Part shown: piece by piece, positions 12,252-48,470 of the stretch
How the letters are laid out: each line of letters opens with the position of its first letter
How positions within the stretch are numbered: position 1 is the stretch's first letter
Assembly: GCF_009749465.1 (NCBI RefSeq)
Contig: NZ_WBIS01000004.1
Coordinates: forward strand, 1 to 64,000
From: Agromyces terreus
GTDB lineage: Bacteria > Actinomycetota > Actinomycetes > Actinomycetales > Microbacteriaceae
DNA: 64,000 bases
Direction: 5' to 3'
The notes under the pieces: model-generated
Databases searched by the model: none
The model's input: only the letters and a program-made list of their open reading frames with translations
Told to the model about the DNA's origin: nothing
Translations under genes and position numbers: made by a program

Positions 12252-14642
12252 ATGCCCAAGAACAAGAAGCCCGCCGGCGGCCGACCCGCCAAGAACTTCG
12301 ACCCCTCCTACGCGAAGGGCGGCAAGCCCGCGCGCCACGGGTCGTCCAAGCCCGGCAGCCGCAGCGCCGGCCACCGCGGATACCGCGCCGAAGAGGCCGA
12401 AGCGCCTCGCGCCAAGGACCGTTGGTCGCGCGACGAGCGCGTCTCCGCCGGTCGCTCGCCGCACCGCGCTGACCGTGCCGACCGTGCGCCTCGCGACGAC
12501 CGTGCTCCTCGGTCGTACGACCGCGGCGGCCGCGACGAGCGCCCCGCGCGTTCGAACGATCGCGACGACCGCGCTCCCCGCTCGTACGACCGCGGCGGGC
12601 GCGACGACCGTGCGCCCCGTTCGTACGACCGCGATGACCGTGCTCCCCGTTCGTACGACCGCGGCGGCCGCGACGAGCGTCCCGCGCGTTCGAACGATCG
12701 CGACGACCGCGCTCCCCGCTCGTATGACCGCAACGAGCGTCCCGTGCGCTCGTTCGACCGCAACGACCGCACGGACCGTGCTCCCCGTTCGTACGATCGC
12801 GATGACCGTGCCCCTCGCTCGTACGACCGCGGCGGCCGCGACGAGCGCCCCGCGCGCTCGTACGACCGCAATGATCGCAACGACCGTGCGGCTCGCCCGG
12901 CCCGCTCGTTCGATCGCGATGACCGTGCGCCTCGTTCGTTCGATCGCGATGACCGTGCGCCTCGTTCGTTCGACCGCAACGACCGCAACGACCGCGCACC
13001 TCGTTCGTTCGACCGGAACGACCGCGCCGACCGCGCCCCCCGTTCGTTCGACCGGAACGACCGCCCGACGCGCTCCTTCGAGCGCGACGAGCGCGCGCCG
13101 CGCCGCGACTTCGACCGCAACGACCGCCCCGCACGCCGCGACTTCGACCGCCCGGGCTTCCAGGACTCCGCGCGCCGCCCGTCGAGCTTCTACCCGGCCA
13201 AGGACGCCGGTGCCCACTTCACCCCGAACGACGACGTCGTGCTCGAGCGCCTCGAGGCCGAGGCCATCCAGGCCGGCGACGTCGACGGCGTGAGCTTCGG
13301 CGACCTCGGTCTCGGGCCGAACGTCGTGCGCGTGCTCGCCGAGCTCGGCGCGGCATCCCCGTTCCCGATCCAGGCCGCGACCATCCCGGTCGTGCTCGAG
13401 GGTCGCGACGTGCTCGGCCGCGGCAAGACCGGCTCCGGCAAGACCATCGCCTTCGGCGCCCCGACGGTCGAGCGCCTCATGAGCCTGTGGGCCCAGTCGG
13501 GCAAGGCCGGCGGCAAGCGCCAGATGGGCCGTCGCCCCCGCGCGCTCATCCTCGCCCCGACCCGCGAGCTCGCGCTGCAGATCGACCGCACCGTGCAGCC
13601 CATCGCGCAGAGCGTCGGCCTCTTCACCACGCAGATCTACGGCGGCGTGCCCCAGGGTCGTCAGGTCGGCGCGCTCCAGCGCGGCGTCGACATCGTGATC
13701 GGCACCCCCGGCCGCATCGAGGACCTCATCGAGCAGGGCCGCCTCGACCTCAGCGAGATCGCCATCACGGTGCTCGATGAGGCCGACCACATGTGCGACC
13801 TCGGGTTCCTCGAGCCGGTGCAGCGCATCCTCCGCCGCACCGCGAAGGGCAGCCAGCGGCTCCTCTTCTCGGCAACCCTCGACCAGGGCGTCGCGACGCT
13901 CGTCGACGAGTTCCTCGTCGACCCGGCCGTGCACGAGGTCGCCGGCGAAGACCAGGCCTCCTCGACGATCGAGCACCGCGTGTTCGTCATCGAGAACCGC
14001 GAGAAGCGCGACATCGTCGCCCAGCTCGCCAACCGCAAGGGCAAGACCCTCGTCTTCAGCCGCACGCGTGCGTTCGCAGAAGACCTCACCGATCACCTCG
14101 AGGACTTCGGCATCCGTGCCGTCGCGCTGCACGGCGACCTCAACCAGTCGCGCCGCACGCGCAACCTGCAGCAGCTCACCTCTGGCCGGGTCGACGTGCT
14201 CGTGGCGACGGATGTCGCGGCGCGCGGCATCCACGTCGACGACATCGACCTCGTGATCCAGGCCGACGCGCCCGACGAGTACAAGACGTACCTGCACCGC
14301 GCCGGCCGCACCGGCCGCGCCGGCAAGGAGGGACGTGTCGTCACGCTCATCCCGCGCAACCGCCAGCGTCGCATGACCGACCTGCTCGACCGCGCCGAGA
14401 TCGCCGCGCCGTTCGAGTTCCTCGCGTTCGGCGAGGAGGCGTTCCCCGAGGACGCGCCCGGCTACGTGGCTCCTGTCGCCGAGGTCGCCGAGGTCGAGGA
14501 GGCCGTCGAGGTCGAGGCATCCGCCGCTCCCGAGGCATCCGACGCCCCCGAGCAGGAGCAGCCCGACACGGCCGACACCCCCGACGTGCTCGAGGAGGCC
14601 GACGAGACGATCGAGTCCGACGACGAGCAGCAGACCGTCTGA
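12252..14642 (+). CDS. DEAD-box RNA helicase with long repetitive Arg/Asp-rich N-terminus
   Basis: 796 residues. The helicase core runs from about residue 340: Q-motif FPIQAATIP, motif I GRGKTGSGKT (about 388-397), Ia PTRELA, TPGR, motif II LDEADHM (about 506), SAT (about 540), then the second RecA domain with ATDVAARGIH and HRAGRTGRAG (about 682). Residues about 70-310 are degenerate repeats of DRDDRAPRSYDR and RGGRDERPARS type, a disordered RNA-binding-like tail unusually placed before the core. The C-terminus is acidic (DEQQTV end). It probably remodels RNA in ribosome assembly, decay or cold adaptation. A terminator hairpin follows at 14680. Confidence 0.93.
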   Translation: MPKNKKPAGGRPAKNFDPSYAKGGKPARHGSSKPGSRSAGHRGYRAEEAEAPRAKDRWSRDERVSAGRSPHRADRADRAPRDDRAPRSYDRGGRDERPARSNDRDDRAPRSYDRGGRDDRAPRSYDRDDRAPRSYDRGGRDERPARSNDRDDRAPRSYDRNERPVRSFDRNDRTDRAPRSYDRDDRAPRSYDRGGRDERPARSYDRNDRNDRAARPARSFDRDDRAPRSFDRDDRAPRSFDRNDRNDRAPRSFDRNDRADRAPRSFDRNDRPTRSFERDERAPRRDFDRNDRPARRDFDRPGFQDSARRPSSFYPAKDAGAHFTPNDDVVLERLEAEAIQAGDVDGVSFGDLGLGPNVVRVLAELGAASPFPIQAATIPVVLEGRDVLGRGKTGSGKTIAFGAPTVERLMSLWAQSGKAGGKRQMGRRPRALILAPTRELALQIDRTVQPIAQSVGLFTTQIYGGVPQGRQVGALQRGVDIVIGTPGRIEDLIEQGRLDLSEIAITVLDEADHMCDLGFLEPVQRILRRTAKGSQRLLFSATLDQGVATLVDEFLVDPAVHEVAGEDQASSTIEHRVFVIENREKRDIVAQLANRKGKTLVFSRTRAFAEDLTDHLEDFGIRAVALHGDLNQSRRTRNLQQLTSGRVDVLVATDVAARGIHVDDIDLVIQADAPDEYKTYLHRAGRTGRAGKEGRVVTLIPRNRQRRMTDLLDRAEIAAPFEFLAFGEEAFPEDAPGYVAPVAEVAEVEEAVEVEASAAPEASDAPEQEQPDTADTPDVLEEADETIESDDEQQTV
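12470..13140 (+). repeat. Degenerate coding repeats in the helicase N-terminus
   Basis: More than twenty copies of short units such as GACCGTGCTCCTCGTTCG and TACGACCGCGGCGGCCGCGA alternate over about 670 bases. They encode runs of DRAPRS, YDRGGRDERPARS and FDRNDR. Units differ by third-position changes and swapping of Y, F and N, which points to repeat expansion followed by divergence. Confidence 0.85.
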
Positions 14643-17630: not shown

Positions 17631-18433
17631 CGGATGCCTCAGCCGGGCGTCGGACGGACGCATCGCCCTCGGCCGGGGCCGGCGCCGGTGCCCACGCACC
17701 CTCGCCGCTCCGGATCGAACGGTTCCCCGACCGCGTCGTCGCGACCCTCGACCGGCCCGACGTGCGCAACGCCATCGACCAGCGCACCGTCGACGCGCTG
17801 CACCTGCTCTGCGCGGAACTCGAGGCGATCCCGCGCATCCTGATCCTCACCGGCGCGGGCGGCGTGTTCGCGTCGGGCGCCGACATCGCCCAACTGCGCG
17901 AACGCCGAGCCGACGACGCCCGCCGAGGCATCAACGCGAACGCGTTCATCCGGGTCGCAGAACTGCCGATGCCGGTCATCGCCGCGCTCGACGGGTACGC
18001 CCTGGGTGGCGGCGCCGAACTCGCCTACGCCGCCGACATCCGCATCGCGACGCCGTCGCTCAAGATCGGCAACCCCGAGACCGGGCTCGGCATCCTCGCC
18101 GCCGCCGGTGCGAGCTGGCGTTTGAAGGAGATCGTCGGCGATGCGCGCGCCGCCGAGATGCTGCTCACCGGGCGCACCGTGCAGGCCGACGAGGCGCTCG
18201 CGATCGGGCTCGTCAGCGCGCTGCATCCGGCCTCCGAGCTGCTCGGCGCCGCGCACGCGATCGCCGACCGCATCGCCCGAAACGACCGCGACGCGACCAT
18301 CGCCACCAAGCGCGTGTTCCGCGCGCCGCGGGCCGAGCACCCCCGGGTCGACCACGAGGCGCAGGCGGTGCTCTTCGAGAGCCCCGAGAAGTTCCGGCGC
18401 ATGACCGAGTTCCTGGAGAGGAAGCAGCCGTGA
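17627..18433 (+). CDS. paaF: Enoyl-CoA hydratase/isomerase of phenylacetate degradation
   Basis: 268 residues from ATG 17627, overlapping the thiolase stop by four bases. After a low-complexity N-terminus (about 30 residues of Ala, Gly, Ser, Asp) the crotonase fold starts at LRIERFPDRVVATLDRP. The oxyanion loops are FASGADIAQL and YALGGGAELAYAADIRIA. The NPETGLGILAAAGASWRL region normally carries the second catalytic Glu; an E is present in NPETG. In the Paa pathway this hydrates 2,3-dehydroadipyl-CoA. It is coupled to paaH downstream by a GTGA overlap. Confidence 0.85.
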   Translation: MTDASAGRRTDASPSAGAGAGAHAPSPLRIERFPDRVVATLDRPDVRNAIDQRTVDALHLLCAELEAIPRILILTGAGGVFASGADIAQLRERRADDARRGINANAFIRVAELPMPVIAALDGYALGGGAELAYAADIRIATPSLKIGNPETGLGILAAAGASWRLKEIVGDARAAEMLLTGRTVQADEALAIGLVSALHPASELLGAAHAIADRIARNDRDATIATKRVFRAPRAEHPRVDHEAQAVLFESPEKFRRMTEFLERKQP

Positions 18434-19476
18434 GTGACGTGAATCCGCGGGATCTCGAGACGCGTGCTCCTGCGTCGCGCGCTCCTCGATCGGCGGGGGG
18501 CGGTGCTCCTGCGTCGCGCGCTCCTCGATCGGCGGGGGGCGGCGCTCCTGCGTCGCGGGATGCTCGATCGGCGGGGGTCGGTGCTCCTGCGTCGCGCGAT
18601 GTTCGATCGGCGGGGGTCGGCACCGGCGCGCCCGCCGAGGTCGGCGTGCTCGGCGGCGGACGCATGGGCGCGGGCATCGCGCACGCGTTCCTCCTCGCGG
18701 GCTCGCGCGTGACCGTCGTCGAACGCGATGCGGATGCCGCGGCCGCCGCCTCGGCGAAGGTGCTCGCCTCCGTCGCGGCATCCGTCGACCGCGGCACCGC
18801 CGACGAAGCCGCCGACGTCATCAGCGCGCGCTTCTCCACGAGCACCGACGTCGCCGCGTTCGCTCCCTGCTCGCTCGTCGTCGAGGCCGTGCCCGAGCAG
18901 CTCGACCTCAAGATCGACGCGCTCACCCGGGTCGAGGCCGTGCTGGCCGACGACGCCGCCCTCGCCTCGAACACCTCGTCGATCTCGATCGACGAGCTCG
19001 CGGCGCTGCTCGACCGGCCCTCGCGGTTCCTCGGCACGCACTTCTTCAACCCCGTGCCCGCGTCGACGCTCGTCGAGATCGTGCGCGGCGCCGCGACCGA
19101 CGAGGCGCTCGTCGACGAGGCACGCGCCTGGGTGCACGCCATCGGCAAGACGCCGATCGTCGTCGCCGACGCCCCCGGCTTCGCGTCGTCACGGCTCGGC
19201 GTCGCGCTCGGGCTCGAGGCGATCCGCATGCTCGAAGAGGGCGTGGCCTCGGCGGAGGACATCGACCGGGCCATGACGCTCGGCTACAAGCATCCGGTCG
19301 GCCCCCTGCGCCTGACCGACCTCGTCGGGCTCGACGTGCGCCTCGGCATCGCCGAGTACCTCGCCGCGAATCTGGGCCCGCGATTCGAGCCGCCCGCCCT
19401 GCTGCGCCGCATGGTCGCCGAGGGGCGCCTCGGGCGCAAGACGGGCGAGGGCTTCACCTCGTGGGACGCGTCATGA
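18430..19476 (+). CDS. paaH: 3-hydroxyacyl-CoA dehydrogenase with repeat-encoded N-terminal extension
   Basis: 348 residues from GTG 18430, which overlaps the paaF stop. The NAD-binding domain begins only at residue about 70 (EVGVLGGGRMGAGIAHAF). It is followed by NTSSISIDELA, the catalytic GTHFFNPVP histidine loop, and a C-terminal helical domain with HPVGPLRLTDLVGLD. The first 68 residues are DLETR plus four 13-residue APASRAPRSAGGG units encoded by 39-bp repeats. No usable start codon lies between these units and the nucleotide-binding strand, so they should be translated. The enzyme oxidises 3-hydroxyadipyl-CoA to 3-oxoadipyl-CoA. Confidence 0.88.
   Translation: MSDVNPRDLETRAPASRAPRSAGGGAPASRAPRSAGGGAPASRDARSAGVGAPASRDVRSAGVGTGAPAEVGVLGGGRMGAGIAHAFLLAGSRVTVVERDADAAAAASAKVLASVAASVDRGTADEAADVISARFSTSTDVAAFAPCSLVVEAVPEQLDLKIDALTRVEAVLADDAALASNTSSISIDELAALLDRPSRFLGTHFFNPVPASTLVEIVRGAATDEALVDEARAWVHAIGKTPIVVADAPGFASSRLGVALGLEAIRMLEEGVASAEDIDRAMTLGYKHPVGPLRLTDLVGLDVRLGIAEYLAANLGPRFEPPALLRRMVAEGRLGRKTGEGFTSWDAS
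18464..18619 (+). repeat. 39-bp tandem repeat (4 units) encoding the PaaH N-terminus
   Basis: Units start at 18464, 18503, 18542 and 18581. Each contains GTGCTCCTGCGTCGCGCG and CTCCTCGATCGGCGGGGG. The array is preceded by GATCTCGAGACG, the other half of the GGTCTCGAGAC...CTCCTCGACCGGCGG element found elsewhere in the window. Units 3 and 4 have GATGCTCGATCGG or GATGTTCGATCGG, so the array has begun to diverge. The period is a multiple of three. Confidence 0.95.
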
Positions 19477-28439: not shown

Positions 28440-28523
28440 GGTCTCGAGACGGCTCGGTCTCGAGACGGCTCCTTCGTCGCCTCCTCGACCGGCGGGAGGG
28501 CACCGCCTCCTCGACCGGCGGGC
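28440..28523. repeat. Intergenic copy of the GGTCTCGAGAC...CTCCTCGACCGGCGG element
   Basis: Two copies of GGTCTCGAGACGGCTC stand in tandem (28440 and about 28455). They are followed by CTTCGTCGCCTCCTCGACCGGCGGG and a second GCCTCCTCGACCGGCGGG; each part is given in pieces of at most 25 bases split here as CTTCGTCG and CCTCCTCGACCGGCGGG. It lies between the convergent YdeI-like gene and paaK and touches the paaK stop. Confidence 0.85.
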
Positions 28524-31669: not shown

Positions 31670-31759
31670 TGCGCACCGCGCCCACCCGCGTGCCCGCCCT
31701 CGCGCCCGTGCCCGCCCCCTCGCCCGCCCTCGCGCCCGGCCTCAACACGTTTTCGGCGC

Positions 31760-31815
31760 CTGAGTGCCGAATCGGTGCGGCCGATCGGGCACTCTCACGC
31801 CGATTCGGCACTCAG
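31760..31815. repeat. Perfect 16-bp-arm hairpin inside the paaA-paaB gap
   Basis: CTGAGTGCCGAATCGG (31760-31775) pairs perfectly with CCGATTCGGCACTCAG (31800-31815). The gap itself is 166 bases, unusual for this otherwise overlapping operon. The paaB ribosome binding site (GCAGGAG) follows 7 bases later. Confidence 0.9.
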
Positions 31816-31835
31816 ACGATGGCAGGAGCAACACG

Positions 31836-32141
31836 ATGAGCACCCCCGGCGAGATGGGGACCGAGCCCTGGCCCCTGTGGGAGGTCTTCGTGCGCGCCAA
31901 CCGCGGCCTGAGCCACGTGCACGTCGGCTCGCTGCACGCGCCCGACCCCGACATGGCCGTGCGCAACGCGCGCGACCTCTACACGCGACGCAACGAGGGC
32001 GTGTCGATCTGGGTCGTGCCCGCCGACGCGATCACGACGAGCGACCCCGACGCGAAGGGCGCCTTCTTCGAGAGCCCCGCCGGCAAGAACTACCGGCACG
32101 CCGTGTACTACACGAAGAGCGAAGGGGTGAAGCACCTGTGA
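31836..32141 (+). CDS. paaB: Phenylacetyl-CoA epoxidase subunit B
   Basis: 101 residues from ATG 31836 with GCAGGAG upstream. It matches the short PaaB family: WPLWEVFVRANRGLSHVHVG at the start, MAVRNARDLYTRRNEGVSIWVV in the middle (quoted in two parts: MAVRNARDLYTRR and NEGVSIWVV), and the YYTKSEGVKHL end. PaaB has no active site; it bridges PaaA-PaaC complexes. Its stop overlaps the paaC GTG (GTGA). Confidence 0.95.
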   Translation: MSTPGEMGTEPWPLWEVFVRANRGLSHVHVGSLHAPDPDMAVRNARDLYTRRNEGVSIWVVPADAITTSDPDAKGAFFESPAGKNYRHAVYYTKSEGVKHL

Positions 32142-33163
32142 GCGTCGAGACCGGCGGTCGAGGAGTGAGCGCCAGCGAGCGTCTCGAGACCCCGCACGAG
32201 GATCTCGAGACGCCTCCTTCGTCGGCTCCTCGATCGGCGGGGGAGACGCCTCCTTCGTCGGCTCCTCGATCGGCGGGGGTGACGCCTCCTTCGTCGGCTC
32301 CTCGATCGGCGGAGGATGCGCACGATGTGCACGGCTCCGTCACCGTCGACGAGCTCGCGCTCGCCGAGGAGCTCGCGGGCTCCGGCATCACCGGTGCGGG
32401 CCGGGTCGCCTCGGCGGATGCCGCGGAGTACGCGATGCGGCTCGGCGACGACGCCCTCGTGCTCGCCCAGCAACTCGGCATGTGGATCACGCGTGCCCCC
32501 GAGCTCGAAGAGGACGTCGCCCTCGGCAACATCGGCCTCGACCTCATCGGCCACGCCCGCTCGCTGCTGCACTACGCGGGCACCGCGACCGGACGCAGCG
32601 AAGACGACCTGGCGTACTGGCGGGGCGAGCCCGAGTTCCGCAACGCGTGGCTGTTCGAGCAGCCGAACGGCGACTTCGCGCACACGATCGCGCGGCAGCT
32701 CGTCGCCTCCCTGTACCTGTACGAGCTCTACGGCGCCCTCGAAGAGTCGGCCGACGAGACGATCGCGGCGATCGCGGCGAAGTCGGTCAAGGAGGTCGAC
32801 TACCACCGCGACCACGCCGTGCAGTGGGTGCTGCGCCTCGCGGGCGGTACCGACGAGTCGCGTCGCCGCATGATCCTCGCCGTGACCGACACGTGGCCGT
32901 ACGTCGACGAGCTCTTCGTCGACGACGAGCTCGTCACGCGTCTCGCCGCCGACGGCGTCGCCGTGCTGCCGTCGACGCTGCGTCCCGCGTTCGAGGCGGC
33001 GGTCGACGCCGTGTTCACCGAGGCCGGACTCGAACGGCCGACGGGGCGCACCGCGTTCATCGCGTCCGGTGGGGGAAGAGCGGGCCGGCACACCGAGCAC
33101 CTCGGCCCGCTGCTCGCCGAGATGCAGGTGCTCGCGCGTTCGCACCCGGGGGCATCGTGGTGA
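32138..33163 (+). CDS. paaC: Phenylacetyl-CoA epoxidase subunit C with repeat-encoded extension
   Basis: 341 residues from GTG 32138, against about 250 for typical PaaC. The conserved part starts at about residue 90 (AEYAMRLGDDALVLAQQLGM, then ELEEDVALGNIGLDLIG, EQPNGDFAHTIARQ, and the end HTEHLGPLLAEMQVLARS). PaaC is the inactive partner of PaaA, binding substrate and stabilising it. Residues 1-60 are GRGVSASERLETP and three TPPSSAPRSAG units encoded by 36-bp repeats. An alternative start at GTG 32327, with GGAGGA 10 bases before it, would skip the repeats and give 278 residues. Confidence 0.93.
   Translation: MSVETGGRGVSASERLETPHEDLETPPSSAPRSAGETPPSSAPRSAGVTPPSSAPRSAEDAHDVHGSVTVDELALAEELAGSGITGAGRVASADAAEYAMRLGDDALVLAQQLGMWITRAPELEEDVALGNIGLDLIGHARSLLHYAGTATGRSEDDLAYWRGEPEFRNAWLFEQPNGDFAHTIARQLVASLYLYELYGALEESADETIAAIAAKSVKEVDYHRDHAVQWVLRLAGGTDESRRRMILAVTDTWPYVDELFVDDELVTRLAADGVAVLPSTLRPAFEAAVDAVFTEAGLERPTGRTAFIASGGGRAGRHTEHLGPLLAEMQVLARSHPGASW
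32209..32316 (+). repeat. 36-bp tandem repeat (3 units) at the start of paaC
   Basis: Units begin at 32209, 32245 and 32281. The unit contains GACGCCTCCTTCGTCGG and CTCCTCGATCGGCGGGGG. Just upstream an inverted copy reads CCGGCGGTCGAGGAGTG ... GCGTCTCGAGACC (about 32153-32191). Period 36 preserves the frame and encodes TPPSSAPRSAG(E/V). Confidence 0.95.
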
Positions 33164-33780
33164 CCGCGGTGGCTGGTCTCGAGACGGGCGCTGGTCTCGA
33201 GACGGGCGCTGCGCGCCCTCCTCGACCGGCGGATGCGGCTGGACGCCCTCCTCGACCGGCGGATGCGGCTGCGCGCCCTCCTCGACCGGCGGGGGCGGAC
33301 GCCCGTGCGTGGGACGTCGCGGCGACGGTGACCGACCCCGAGATCCCGGTGCTCACGATCGAGGACCTCGGCGTGCTGCGCTCGGCGTCCGTCGACGAGA
33401 CGGGAGCGGTTCGCGTGCAGCTCACGCCCACGTACAGCGGATGCCCCGCGCTCGACGCCATGCGCGACGACGTCGTGCTCGCACTCACGCACGCCGGCTA
33501 CGACGACGTGTCGGTCGAGCTCGTGCTCGCCCCCGCGTGGACCACCGACTGGATGAGCGAGGCCGGCAAGGCGAAGCTTCGCCGCTACGGCATCCAGGCG
33601 CCGACCGGCCGTGCCGCCGCGCGCGACGCCGGCCCCGTGCGCGTGCAGCTCGCGGTCAAGTGCCCGCGCTGCGACTCGCTGAACACCCGCGAACTCGCCC
33701 GCTTCGGCTCGACGTCGTGCAAGGCGCTCTACGAGTGCCGCGACTGCCTCGAGCCCTTCGACTACTTCAAGGTGCTGTGA
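33160..33780 (+). CDS. paaD: PaaD iron-sulphur maturation-like protein with repeat-encoded extension
   Basis: 206 residues from GTG 33160, which overlaps the paaC stop. The MIP18/DUF59-like core begins at about residue 49: TVTDPEIPVLTIEDLGVLR, then TPTYSGCPALDAM, and WTTDWMSEAGKAKLR. A four-Cys zinc-ribbon-like tail follows: VKCPRCDSLNT, TSCKALYECRDCLEPFDYFK. PaaD is needed for the iron-sulphur cofactor of the epoxygenase reductase. The first 45 residues are GLETGAGLETGA and three RPPRPADAA units from 30-bp repeats. No start codon lies between them and the conserved helix, so they must be read. Confidence 0.93.
   Translation: MTAVAGLETGAGLETGAARPPRPADAAGRPPRPADAAARPPRPAGADARAWDVAATVTDPEIPVLTIEDLGVLRSASVDETGAVRVQLTPTYSGCPALDAMRDDVVLALTHAGYDDVSVELVLAPAWTTDWMSEAGKAKLRRYGIQAPTGRAAARDAGPVRVQLAVKCPRCDSLNTRELARFGSTSCKALYECRDCLEPFDYFKVL
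33175..33300 (+). repeat. 18-bp and 30-bp tandem repeats at the start of paaD
   Basis: GGTCTCGAGACGGGCGCT occurs twice (33175 and 33193). Three 30-bp units follow, at 33211, 33241 and 33271, of the form GCGCGCCCTCCTCGACC plus GGCGGATGCGGCT. Both parts come from the GGTCTCGAGAC...CTCCTCGACCGGCGG element. Confidence 0.95.
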
Positions 33781-35174
33781 TGGCCGCGCGCAATCTGGGT
33801 TCCGTCGGTCGAGGAGGCGCGACAGCGCCGTCTCGAGACCTCGACGGTGGTGTCGACGGTGGTGTCGACGGTGGTCTCGACACGCCTCCTTCGTCGGCTG
33901 CTCGACCGGCGCCGGCGGTCTCGCAGGTCTCGCAGGTCTCGAGACGCTCCGCTCCTCGACCGGCGTCCGCTCCTCGACCGGCGTCCGCTCCTCGACCGGC
34001 CTCAGCCGCCGCAGAGGCGTTCCTCGCCGCGACCGTCGGCGGCGAGGCCGCCGCCACTCCCGAGGCATCCAAGCGTCGGCGGGCGCGGTTCCACTCGCTC
34101 GAGGTCGCCGAGGTCCGTCCGCTGACGGCCGACGCCGTCGAGGTCACGTTCGCCGTGCCGGCCGAACTCGCCGACGAGTACGCGTACCAGCCGGGCCAGT
34201 ACGTGGCCCTCCGCGCCGAGCTCGAGGGCCACGAGCGCCGCCGCAGCTACTCGATCTGCCGTTCGCCCTCGCGTGCGGCCGACGGCTCGGGCACGATCTC
34301 GGTCGGCATCAAGCGCGACCTCGGGGGGATCTTCTCGAGCTGGGCGAACACCGAGCTGAAGGCGGGCGATGCGCTCGACGTGATGAGCCCGCAGGGCACG
34401 TTCACCTCGACGCTCGAGGCGCTCGACGGCAAGCATGTCGTCGCGATCGCCGCGGGGTCGGGCATCACCCCGCTCATGGCGCTCGCCCAGACGGTGCTGG
34501 CCCGCTCCGAGACATCCGAATTCGAACTGGTCTACACGAACCGGTCGACGCTCGACGTGATGTTCCTCGAGGAGCTCGCCGAGCTGAAGGACCGCTACCC
34601 GTCGCGGCTCGCGCTGCACCACGTGCTCTCGCGCGAGCAGCGCACGGCGCCGCTGCTGTCGGGCCGCATCGACGCCGAGAAGCTCGGCACCATGCTCGAC
34701 GTGCTGATCCGGCCCGAGACGGTCGACGAGTGGTTCCTGTGCGGGCCGTTCGAGCTCGTGCAGCTCGCCCGCGACACCCTCGCCGCGAAGGGCGTGCCCG
34801 CCGAGCACGTGCGGTACGAGCTGTTCACGACCGACGCCGACCGCGTCGAGCCGCGCCACGGCCGCCCCGTCGAGGTGCGGCAGGGCGAGCGCACGTTCGC
34901 GATCGAGTTCACGCTCGACGGGCAGAGCTCGACCGTCGAGAGCCCGGTGTCGGCGAACGAGTCGATCCTGAACGCGGCGCTGCGCGTGCGCCCCGACGTG
35001 CCGTTCGCGTGCGCCGGCGGCGTGTGCGGAACCTGCCGGGCCCGCGTCACCGAGGGCGACGTGGCGATGACCGAGAACTACGCGCTCGAACCCGAAGAGC
35101 TCGAGCGCGGGTACGTGCTCACCTGCCAGTCGCACCCGACGTCCGACCGCGTGAGCGTCGACTATGACGTCTGA
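33780..35174 (+). CDS. paaE: Phenylacetyl-CoA epoxidase reductase with repeat-encoded extension
   Basis: 464 residues from ATG 33780 (TGATG overlap), about 100 longer than usual. The conserved protein begins at about residue 100 (RFHSLEVAEVRPLT). Next come the FAD site RRSYSICRSP, the NAD(P)H site AAGSGITPLMALA and LCGPFELVQ, and a C-terminal plant-type 2Fe-2S domain (CAGGVCGTCRARV, last Cys in LTCQSHP). It passes electrons from NAD(P)H to the PaaA di-iron centre. The first 85 residues are low-complexity and repeat-encoded (DGGVDGG, SQVSQVS, three SAPRPA units), with no internal start before the conserved part. Confidence 0.94.
   Translation: MAARNLGSVGRGGATAPSRDLDGGVDGGVDGGLDTPPSSAARPAPAVSQVSQVSRRSAPRPASAPRPASAPRPASAAAEAFLAATVGGEAAATPEASKRRRARFHSLEVAEVRPLTADAVEVTFAVPAELADEYAYQPGQYVALRAELEGHERRRSYSICRSPSRAADGSGTISVGIKRDLGGIFSSWANTELKAGDALDVMSPQGTFTSTLEALDGKHVVAIAAGSGITPLMALAQTVLARSETSEFELVYTNRSTLDVMFLEELAELKDRYPSRLALHHVLSREQRTAPLLSGRIDAEKLGTMLDVLIRPETVDEWFLCGPFELVQLARDTLAAKGVPAEHVRYELFTTDADRVEPRHGRPVEVRQGERTFAIEFTLDGQSSTVESPVSANESILNAALRVRPDVPFACAGGVCGTCRARVTEGDVAMTENYALEPEELERGYVLTCQSHPTSDRVSVDYDV
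33803..34001 (+). repeat. Composite of the same element with 12-, 9- and 18-bp arrays at the start of paaE
   Basis: An inverted full element (CGGTCGAGGAGG...GTCTCGAGACC, 33803-33840) is followed by three 12-bp TCGACGGTGGTG units from 33841 and CACGCCTCCTTCGTCGG. GTCTCGCAG repeats follow at about 33918. Three 18-bp TCCGCTCCTCGACCGGCG units end the array, at 33948, 33966 and 33984. All periods are multiples of three. Confidence 0.92.
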
Positions 35175-47459: not shown

Positions 47460-48470
47460 TCACAGGCCCACCTCGGTGCGATCGGGCGTGACGCCGCCGA
47501 GCCCGGCCTGCAGCGCCCACCAGTAGATGCCGAAGGAGACGGTCCAGAACAGCAGGACGAAGACCGTGTCGCGCGCCCGCCAGCGGCTGATCGTGCGCTC
47601 GGTGCGCGTCGGGTGGGCGCCGAACGCGCGCGCGTCCATGGCGAGGGCGACGCGCTCGGCGTGCCGGATGGCGCTCGCGAGCAGCGGGATCGCGGTGCCG
47701 ACGGTGCGCTGCACGGCCGCGAACGGTCCGCGGCCGGCATCCGTCCCGCGAACGCGGTGCGCGGCGCGGATGACCTCGAGCTCGTGTCCGAACCGCGGCA
47801 CGAAGCGGAGCGCCGCGAGCGCCGTGTATCCGATGCGGTAGGGCACGCGCAGGTTCTGCACGAGCGCGCGCACCAGCTCGGGGCCGCTCGTGGTGAGCCC
47901 CGCGATGAGCGAGAGCATGAGCAGCGCCGCGATGCGCAGCGCCGTCGCGAGGCCCACGAGGTACGCGGCGAGCGTGAACCGCCAGTCGCCGATCTCGAGG
48001 AGGACGACGGATGCCGCGGCGCTGCCGTTCTCGATGCGGTCGGGGTCGACCCAGATGCCGAAGCTCAGTCCGAGCACGAGGATCGCGACGGGAACCCCCA
48101 GGAGCAACGCGGCGAGGGCACGGCCCGAGAGCCGCGCGCCGACGACGAGCAGGCCGAGCGCGACCACGATGAACGCCAGCGGGATCGCGATGCCGCGCGT
48201 GAAGATGAGGGCGAGCATCACCGGCAGGGGCGCGGCGAACTTCGCGAGCGGGTTCAGGCGGTGCAGGAACCGGATGCCGCTCGTGGGCGCCTGCTCGGCG
48301 TAGGGGTCGCGCGGGGCGACCGTCGGTCGGGGAGGCGTGCGGGCGGGGTCTGGTGGCCGGGTTCCGCTGGTCTCGAGACGCTGCGCTGCTCGACCGGCGG
48401 GGTGTGGGGCGCTGGTCTCGAGACGCTGCGCTCCTCGACCGGCGGCGGCGGCGGTGTCGGCGGCGCTCAT
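47460..48470 (-). CDS. ECF transporter T component with repeat-encoded N-terminus
   Basis: 336 residues from ATG 48470 (overlapping the ATPase stop, ATGA). The conserved CbiQ/EcfT part begins at about residue 65: GIRFLHRLNPLAKFAAPLP, five or six transmembrane helices, and two coupling helices with ALRFVPRFGHELEVIRAAHRVRG and HAERVALAMDARAFG (the Arg-Ala-Arg/ARG signatures). The first 60 residues are AGRGAQRLETSAPHPAG and AGRAAQRLETSGTRP from two 32-bp repeats. There is no later start before the conserved part, so they are translated. Confidence 0.9.
   Translation of the reverse strand: MSAADTAAAAGRGAQRLETSAPHPAGRAAQRLETSGTRPPDPARTPPRPTVAPRDPYAEQAPTSGIRFLHRLNPLAKFAAPLPVMLALIFTRGIAIPLAFIVVALGLLVVGARLSGRALAALLLGVPVAILVLGLSFGIWVDPDRIENGSAAASVVLLEIGDWRFTLAAYLVGLATALRIAALLMLSLIAGLTTSGPELVRALVQNLRVPYRIGYTALAALRFVPRFGHELEVIRAAHRVRGTDAGRGPFAAVQRTVGTAIPLLASAIRHAERVALAMDARAFGAHPTRTERTISRWRARDTVFVLLFWTVSFGIYWWALQAGLGGVTPDRTEVGL
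48369..48445 (-). repeat. Two 32-bp repeats at the start of ecfT
   Basis: GGTCTCGAGACGCTGCG then CTGCTCGACCGGCGG (48369-48400), and GGTCTCGAGACGCTGCG then CTCCTCGACCGGCGG (48414-48445). These are the cleanest full-length copies of the element. Read on the coding (minus) strand they give GRGAQRLETS. Confidence 0.95.

Follow-up and report, generated by a model that had tools for sequence, protein, structure and literature searches.

Probable translation of REP-like repeats behind overlapping stop and start codons in the paa genes of Agromyces terreus

Repeat arrays in paaC, paaD and paaE

The window analyzed here is a 64,000-nt stretch of Agromyces terreus DNA (RefSeq assembly GCF_009749465.1, contig NZ_WBIS01000004.1, positions 1 to 64,000 of the forward strand). 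It contains paaA through paaE in order, as identified with the NCBIfam models PaaA–PaaE, and the last three of these genes carry, just behind their start codons, arrays of a palindromic repeat that resembles repetitive extragenic palindromes (REPs). The genes and arrays are as follows.

32138..33163, plus strand: paaC; GTG start, GTGA overlap of 4 nt with the paaB stop; TIGR02158, 276.5 bits
32156..32191, plus strand: 36-bp full-length element GGTCGAGGAG-TGAGCGCCAGCGAGC-GTCTCGAGACC in paaC, 14 nt behind the paaB stop
32207..32316, plus strand: 36-bp tandem array in frame in paaC, 3.1 copies, with a half element in opposite orientation
33160..33780, plus strand: paaD; GTG start, GTGA overlap of 4 nt with the paaC stop; TIGR02159, 185.4 bits
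33172..33292, plus strand: paaD array of 18-bp (x2.2) and 30-bp (x2.8) repeats, starting ~11 nt behind the paaC stop
33780..35174, plus strand: paaE; ATG start, TGATG overlap of 1 nt with the paaD stop; TIGR02160, 493 bits
33807..33840, plus strand: 34-bp full-length element in paaE, 26 nt behind the paaD stop; hairpin
33841..34000, plus strand: paaE array of in-frame 12-bp, 9-bp and 18-bp tandem repeats

Taken whole, the repeat regions span 32156–32316 in paaC, 33172–33292 in paaD and 33807–34000 in paaE. At paaB/C, paaC/D and paaD/E, a repeat positioned behind the upstream stop lies inside the next frame because that stop overlaps the next start (by 4, 4 and 1 nt). The arrays are open in the gene frame and read in one phase, giving the peptides SAPRSA, RPPRPA and SAPRPA. 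Tandem periods are 36 in paaC, 18 and 30 in paaD, and 12, 9 and 18 in paaE, such that all six are multiples of three. A first-pass annotation had described in-frame repeats behind the three overlapping starts, with every period a multiple of three, and coordinates, starts and the single peptide phase bear this out. It had also proposed an N-terminal extension of 45–100 residues. That figure fits the whole stretch ahead of the conserved core (97 aa in PaaC, 50 in PaaD and 102 in PaaE), whereas the repeats themselves, judged by own versus congener lengths, contribute only roughly 25–60 residues. In congeners, the corresponding stretches measure 33–73, 8–55 and 11–126 aa (medians 45, 23 and 45), once four starts misassigned by the script, all too far upstream, are excluded (L037 and L047 for paaC, L036 and L045 for paaE).

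Two other repeats occur in the window. The paaA–paaB gap holds a different palindrome (31757–31818), whose core, GAGTGCCGAATCGG, is found in nine exact copies genome-wide. At 12479–13151 there are long degenerate tandem repeats (20–138 bp), which by eye bear no relation to the REP-like family.

A genome-wide family and its position relative to stop codons

A complete copy of the element consists of GGTCGAGGAG, a variable hairpin and (C)GTCTCGAGACC. Searching the A. terreus genome for GGTCGAGGAG – variable hairpin – CGTCTCGAGACC returned 120 + 117 = 237 intact copies, against none in the reversed control. The half-site GGTCTCGAGACG, which represents one end of the element, occurs 135 + 132 times, as compared to 0 + 0 in the reversed control, and hence the repeats are not a product of chance. 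Both orientations are abundant. The paa repeats are therefore copies of a genome-wide REP-like palindromic family, and these counts rule out an element specific to paa. Across the genus, intact copies were found in 31 of 60 genomes, A. terreus included. In the family, 12 of 150 drawn genomes contain them, among which are A. terreus and two congeners; one genome of another genus has 271 copies.

Among 122 intact units from the sampled stretches described below, the commonest forms are 27 bp (53 units) and 34 bp (49 units), and there are 31 distinct inner sequences. In paaE, the 34-bp copy folds into a hairpin (–11.5 kcal/mol, z = –2.7 versus shuffles), and the 36-bp copy in paaC folds no better than shuffles. 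For the 31 distinct inner sequences of A. terreus, the excess of stem complementarity is modest, with a mean of 2.65 versus a shuffle mean of 1.99 and maximum of 2.48. By eye, and among the matches listed, stems differ between species, with ends that are constant under the pattern used. Among the same listed matches, the inner stem varies between copies and species and is often still self-complementary, as if swapped whole and not base by base. A compound IUPAC pattern gave no matches in the window. A GGTTGAGTAG...GTATCGAAACC version of the element was found in none of 59 genomes of the order, few of which belong to the same family, and was dropped.

To describe placement, we used 35 stretches around the first 100 of the 267 listed half-sites, plus the window; this sample of 59 clusters follows contig order and hence is non-random, and its genes were called by a codon model trained on the sampled stretches, not taken from curated annotation. 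Half-site density is very uneven in this genome, with 10 of the first 100 listed sites on the 1.15-Mb contig C12 and 69 on the first 0.57 Mb of contig C20. Clusters usually start 2–30 nt behind a stop codon that faces them: 37 of the 59 begin within 30 nt and 32 within 20 nt. Forty-one lie in no called gene, the three paa arrays among them, as the model places the paaC, paaD and paaE starts behind the arrays. Apart from the junction clusters described below, four are located within long called genes or at their ends. Fifteen lie between convergent genes, one of them in the window.

28440..28518, unstranded: non-coding copies of the REP-like family, in a gap between convergent genes and 27 nt behind a stop; repeat period 16 bp

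Fifteen tandem gaps lacking start overlap were considered (a set that omits L156 and L179:1038, two tandem clusters overlapping a called gene). In 11 of them the array is found within 20 nt of the stop upstream, compared to a mean of 5.4 expected from random placing (P = 0.0009). The random mean rises to 7.8 (P = 0.03) when arrays are barred from the last 20 nt ahead of the next start. The gene 3′ side is the nearer one in 12 of the 15 gaps (sign test, P = 0.018). The first-pass annotation had placed the repeats at exactly the coupled junctions of the paa genes. That claim is not supported for the family as a whole, which is genome-wide, with sampled clusters mostly a few nucleotides behind stops.

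Junction copies and evidence for their translation

At 11 of the 59 clusters, a start overlaps the upstream stop, and the frame of that start crosses the array and continues into the downstream gene. These junction genes are paaC, paaD, paaE, a 3-hydroxyacyl-CoA dehydrogenase-like gene, a CbiQ-like gene, cysD, hemL and four others. Their clusters begin 11, 11, 11, 14, 17, 17, 20, 26, 26, 47 and 167 nt behind the stop, so that nine of the eleven (11–26 nt) fall within the range seen for extragenic copies. It is because of the gene overlap that the junction copies sit at N-termini. Besides the paa genes, two junctions lie in the window.

18430..18620, plus strand: REP-like family at the N-terminus of the 3-hydroxyacyl-CoA dehydrogenase-like gene; GTGA overlap; 39-bp period
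48325..48440, minus strand: REP-like family 26 nt behind the upstream stop, at the N-terminus of the CbiQ-like gene; start at 48470 with ATGA overlap; gene score below the cut-off of the CbiQ model

ScpB (L151), read by eye and not among the junctions counted by script, shows the same arrangement with an 11-nt overlap. At 4.3 kb outside the window, an amidase-like gene (L195, G000:C22:68330), named by eye, has an ATGA junction with the REP-like family behind it. Three of the four loci read in the same check had no convincing gene.

If the junction copies are translated, their amplification should respect the reading frame, and the tandem periods behave in this way. All 12 periods at junctions are multiples of three, whereas the 48 clusters outside junctions have 19 such periods out of 45 (Fisher one-sided P = 0.0002). 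Counted by locus, the values are 8 of 8 versus 14 of 35 (P = 0.002). Only 5 of 13 periods in arrays between convergent genes are multiples of three, and pooling junction with intragenic copies gives 15 of 15 coding periods. An earlier run, with a lower score limit and classes set by hand, found multiples of three in 13 of 13 coding periods, in 4 of 13 convergent ones and in 14 of 33 elsewhere. Codon usage points in the same direction. In 20 translated linkers (1150 codons), AGA and AGG occur 6 times in the reading frame versus 77 and 16 times in the other two, although tandem copies enter these counts repeatedly. The overlap of start with upstream stop is conserved among congeners (29/29 for paaC, 28/29 for paaD and 29/29 for paaE), with the proviso that these starts were picked by a script that preferred overlap. 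In the AlphaFold model of PaaE, pLDDT (predicted local distance difference test) is below 50 for residues 1–16 and 18–98, and the first strand begins at 104; this is weak evidence, as other rows of the alignment lack the N-terminal region.

These data lead us to regard it as probable that REP-like copies are translated as part of downstream proteins by way of the stop/start overlap. For PaaC, PaaD and PaaE in particular, the sequence features point very probably to translated, disordered, in-frame N-terminal extensions, in keeping with the first-pass annotation. We envisage that an element would land shortly behind a stop and that, where the stop overlaps a start, the landing place would be the next frame. 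Survivors would be copies that contain no in-frame stops or rare arginine codons and whose total length is a multiple of three, and they would lie in an N-terminal linker that is naturally disordered and variable in length. Slippage or unequal exchange may then amplify sub-units, only by multiples of three. The extension would be tolerated, not selected. Survival of in-frame copies had been put forward by the first-pass annotation as well, and the present analysis supports it.

Several observations weigh against this interpretation. For 15 of the 59 clusters, the rule used finds no facing stop within 200 nt. The preference for the 3′ side in tandem gaps drops to 10 of 15 (P = 0.15) when the 20 nt before the next start are set aside, and in two junction clusters the stop is 47 and 167 nt away. 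Membership of the junction class requires a continuing frame, which favors total lengths that are multiples of three without forcing the period. Half-site spacings, which mix separate insertions with amplification, give a less clean picture than periods, with multiples of three accounting for 43 of 65 in coding clusters (classes set by hand), for 28 of 92 where genes converge and for 52 of 161 elsewhere. Finally, the codon model puts the starts of all three paa genes behind the arrays (paaC 32327, paaD 33328, paaE 34155), and the GTG codons that follow the paaC and paaD arrays could start shorter proteins.

Orthologues, alternative explanations and known systems

We searched 36 other genomes of the genus, found 29 with a strong paaD match, and compared all 29. 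Eight of these congeners (G025, A. salentinus, A. sp. S2-1-8, A. albus, G002, A. italicus, G018 and A. lapidis) carry half-sites of the REP-like family in one or more of the three linkers; the remaining 21 have none under the stricter criterion. Single F5 half-site matches, some of which fall in a conserved core segment, are not counted as repeats. A. salentinus PaaC resembles the A. terreus insert without the 36-bp amplification, and its PaaE has a related insert with 12-residue repeats of its own (a 36-bp amplification). Four congeners have, in the linker of paaC or paaD, a CTTCGACAAGCTCAGG-like repeat that is apparently unrelated to the REP-like family, as detected with a 16-mer consensus and up to 2 mismatches. 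Its bearers are L039, L052 and L055 (paaC) and L053 (paaD), from A. cerinus, A. mediolanus RA 14A.10, A. mediolanus JCM 3346 and A. bauzanensis. Neither repeat type is seen in 17 of the 29. On a tree of the conserved core, the REP-like family requires a minimum of 3 changes in paaC, 4 in paaD and 4 in paaE, with L048 paaC scored as repeat-bearing from its peptide and not from a half-site match. Thus, the linkers vary in both length and content, and empty, decayed, separately amplified and differently filled states coexist. We therefore read the linkers as tolerant of in-frame inserts, not as a private target site.

One alternative is that the arrays are untranslated leaders, in which case paaC, paaD and paaE would begin at later starts and the repeats would serve only as RNA hairpins or intercistronic regulators. 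The codon-model starts fit this idea, as does the view of Di Nocera, De Gregorio and Rocco (2013, PMC3733652), in the part of that paper drawn on here, that N-terminal REPs are, for the most part, possibly non-coding in P. putida, C. koseri and S. maltophilia. The first-pass annotation held that no start lies between array and domain in paaD and paaE, implying that paaC has one. This holds for paaE, where no ATG, GTG or TTG occurs between array and conserved core, and GTG 32327 is indeed found behind the paaC array. It fails for paaD, where the in-frame GTG 33328 follows the array and coincides with residue 1 of the NCBIfam model for PaaD. However, a start at 33328 would remove a WxxAA stretch that is kept in 30 of 30 Agromyces rows. 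Together with the startless paaE interval, the junction periods, the avoidance of rare codons in frame and the conserved overlapping starts, this makes untranslated leaders quite unlikely.

It is also unlikely, we believe, that a mobile element has its own sequence-specific preference for the coupled junctions of the paa operon. Arrays in three neighboring genes would suit such an element, as would the family's presence at the same linkers in congeners, with the number of changes given above. Against it stand the many clusters in no called gene or between convergent genes and the absence of a PF01797 transposase, and the second, apparently unrelated repeat in the linkers of four other strains speaks for tolerance. 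A single fixed reading phase was considered as a sign of targeted insertion and rejected: A. terreus copies mostly use one phase, and A. italicus, G018 and G002 also use another. The remaining alternative, that the extensions are functional (as epoxidase tethers or tuners of subunit ratio) and under positive selection, would account for their presence in all three genes, and A. salentinus, A. italicus and G018 likewise have inserts in at least two of the three. Yet most congeners lack family half-sites, content and length vary, and the same kind of tail is found on the unrelated HemL, CysD and CbiQ-like protein. We consider this last explanation very improbable.

How the family spreads was addressed by searching for the REP-transposase family PF01797 (Y1_Tnp), which was detected in none of 60 genus genomes; the control was positive in 5 of 14, with E. 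coli among the positives. Dispersal by a REP-associated tyrosine transposase (RAYT) is rejected on these grounds, and the family differs in this respect from GTAG REPs mobilized by RAYT. The case for a mobile element, as suggested by the first-pass annotation, thus consists only of the scattered distribution and presence/absence among species. CGTC-type REPs apparently also lack a dedicated transposase (PMC3733652, part consulted).

Comparisons with known repeats draw on the portions of PMC3733652 consulted. REPs of the GTAG and CGTC super-families are short palindromes in pairs or clusters, mostly close behind stops (next to gene 3′ ends, at <20 bp, between convergent or tandem open reading frames), with some intragenic copies that are commoner at the N-terminus than at the end of the protein. 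The Agromyces family is alike in its short palindromic unit (20–40 bp), its high copy number and its mainly extragenic position near gene 3′ ends. It is unlike them in that its hairpins vary internally between conserved GGTCGAGGAG and GTCTCGAGACC ends, that it has no terminal GTAG tag, and that it forms arrays at overlapping junctions amplified by multiples of three. CGTC-tagged REPs are described with an unpaired CGTC at one end, a stem of 8–9 bp and a CCA-like tail, whereas the CGTC of the Agromyces unit is internal. Post-stop placement is shared with E. coli REPs, for which a distance of <15 nt from the stop has been reported to down-regulate translation (cited in PMC12306157, seen in part). 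Differences from E. coli REPs are the lack of the Y1 transposase family in the 60 Agromyces genomes and the predicted translation of some copies.

Rickettsia palindromic elements (RPEs), named as the closest precedent by the first-pass annotation, are a fair comparison. Like RPEs, the Agromyces repeats are found in frame in unrelated proteins (paaC, paaD, paaE and eight further sampled junction clusters). Unlike RPEs, most sampled copies are extragenic, those at junctions are N-terminal, and tandem amplification is seen, none being reported for RPEs in the literature passages covered. According to the same portions of PMC3733652, REP clusters encode 43–82 aa in Thauera and R. conorii, and proteins with N-terminal RPE-1 are said to be expressed in vivo. 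The searched text of that paper gave no match for ‘Actinobacteria’, and among the matches listed in open-licence PMC text there was no paper on this REP-like family or on REPs at overlapping junctions.

In-frame intragenic REPs, N-terminal ones included, are already established, both by RPEs and in the consulted part of PMC3733652; what is new here is the overlap-junction rule and the three-base test. The rule is simple: an extragenic repeat would become protein where the preceding stop overlaps the next start. As far as the part of their paper used here goes, Di Nocera et al. (2013) left open whether N-terminal REPs are translated, and the contrast in period modulo three between junction and convergent arrays provides a test that needs nothing beyond sequence. 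We lean, by a small measure, toward a broader view in which overlapping junctions act as a gateway that turns post-stop REPs into coding sequence, forming a recurrent source of new disordered N-termini across Agromyces and perhaps other Microbacteriaceae. Such tails would grow by slippage in multiples of three and attach to unrelated housekeeping enzymes, and their translation could be read from the three-base periodicity of array periods alone. In such genomes, N-terminal extensions should not be cut off as a matter of course, nor should they be taken for functional domains.

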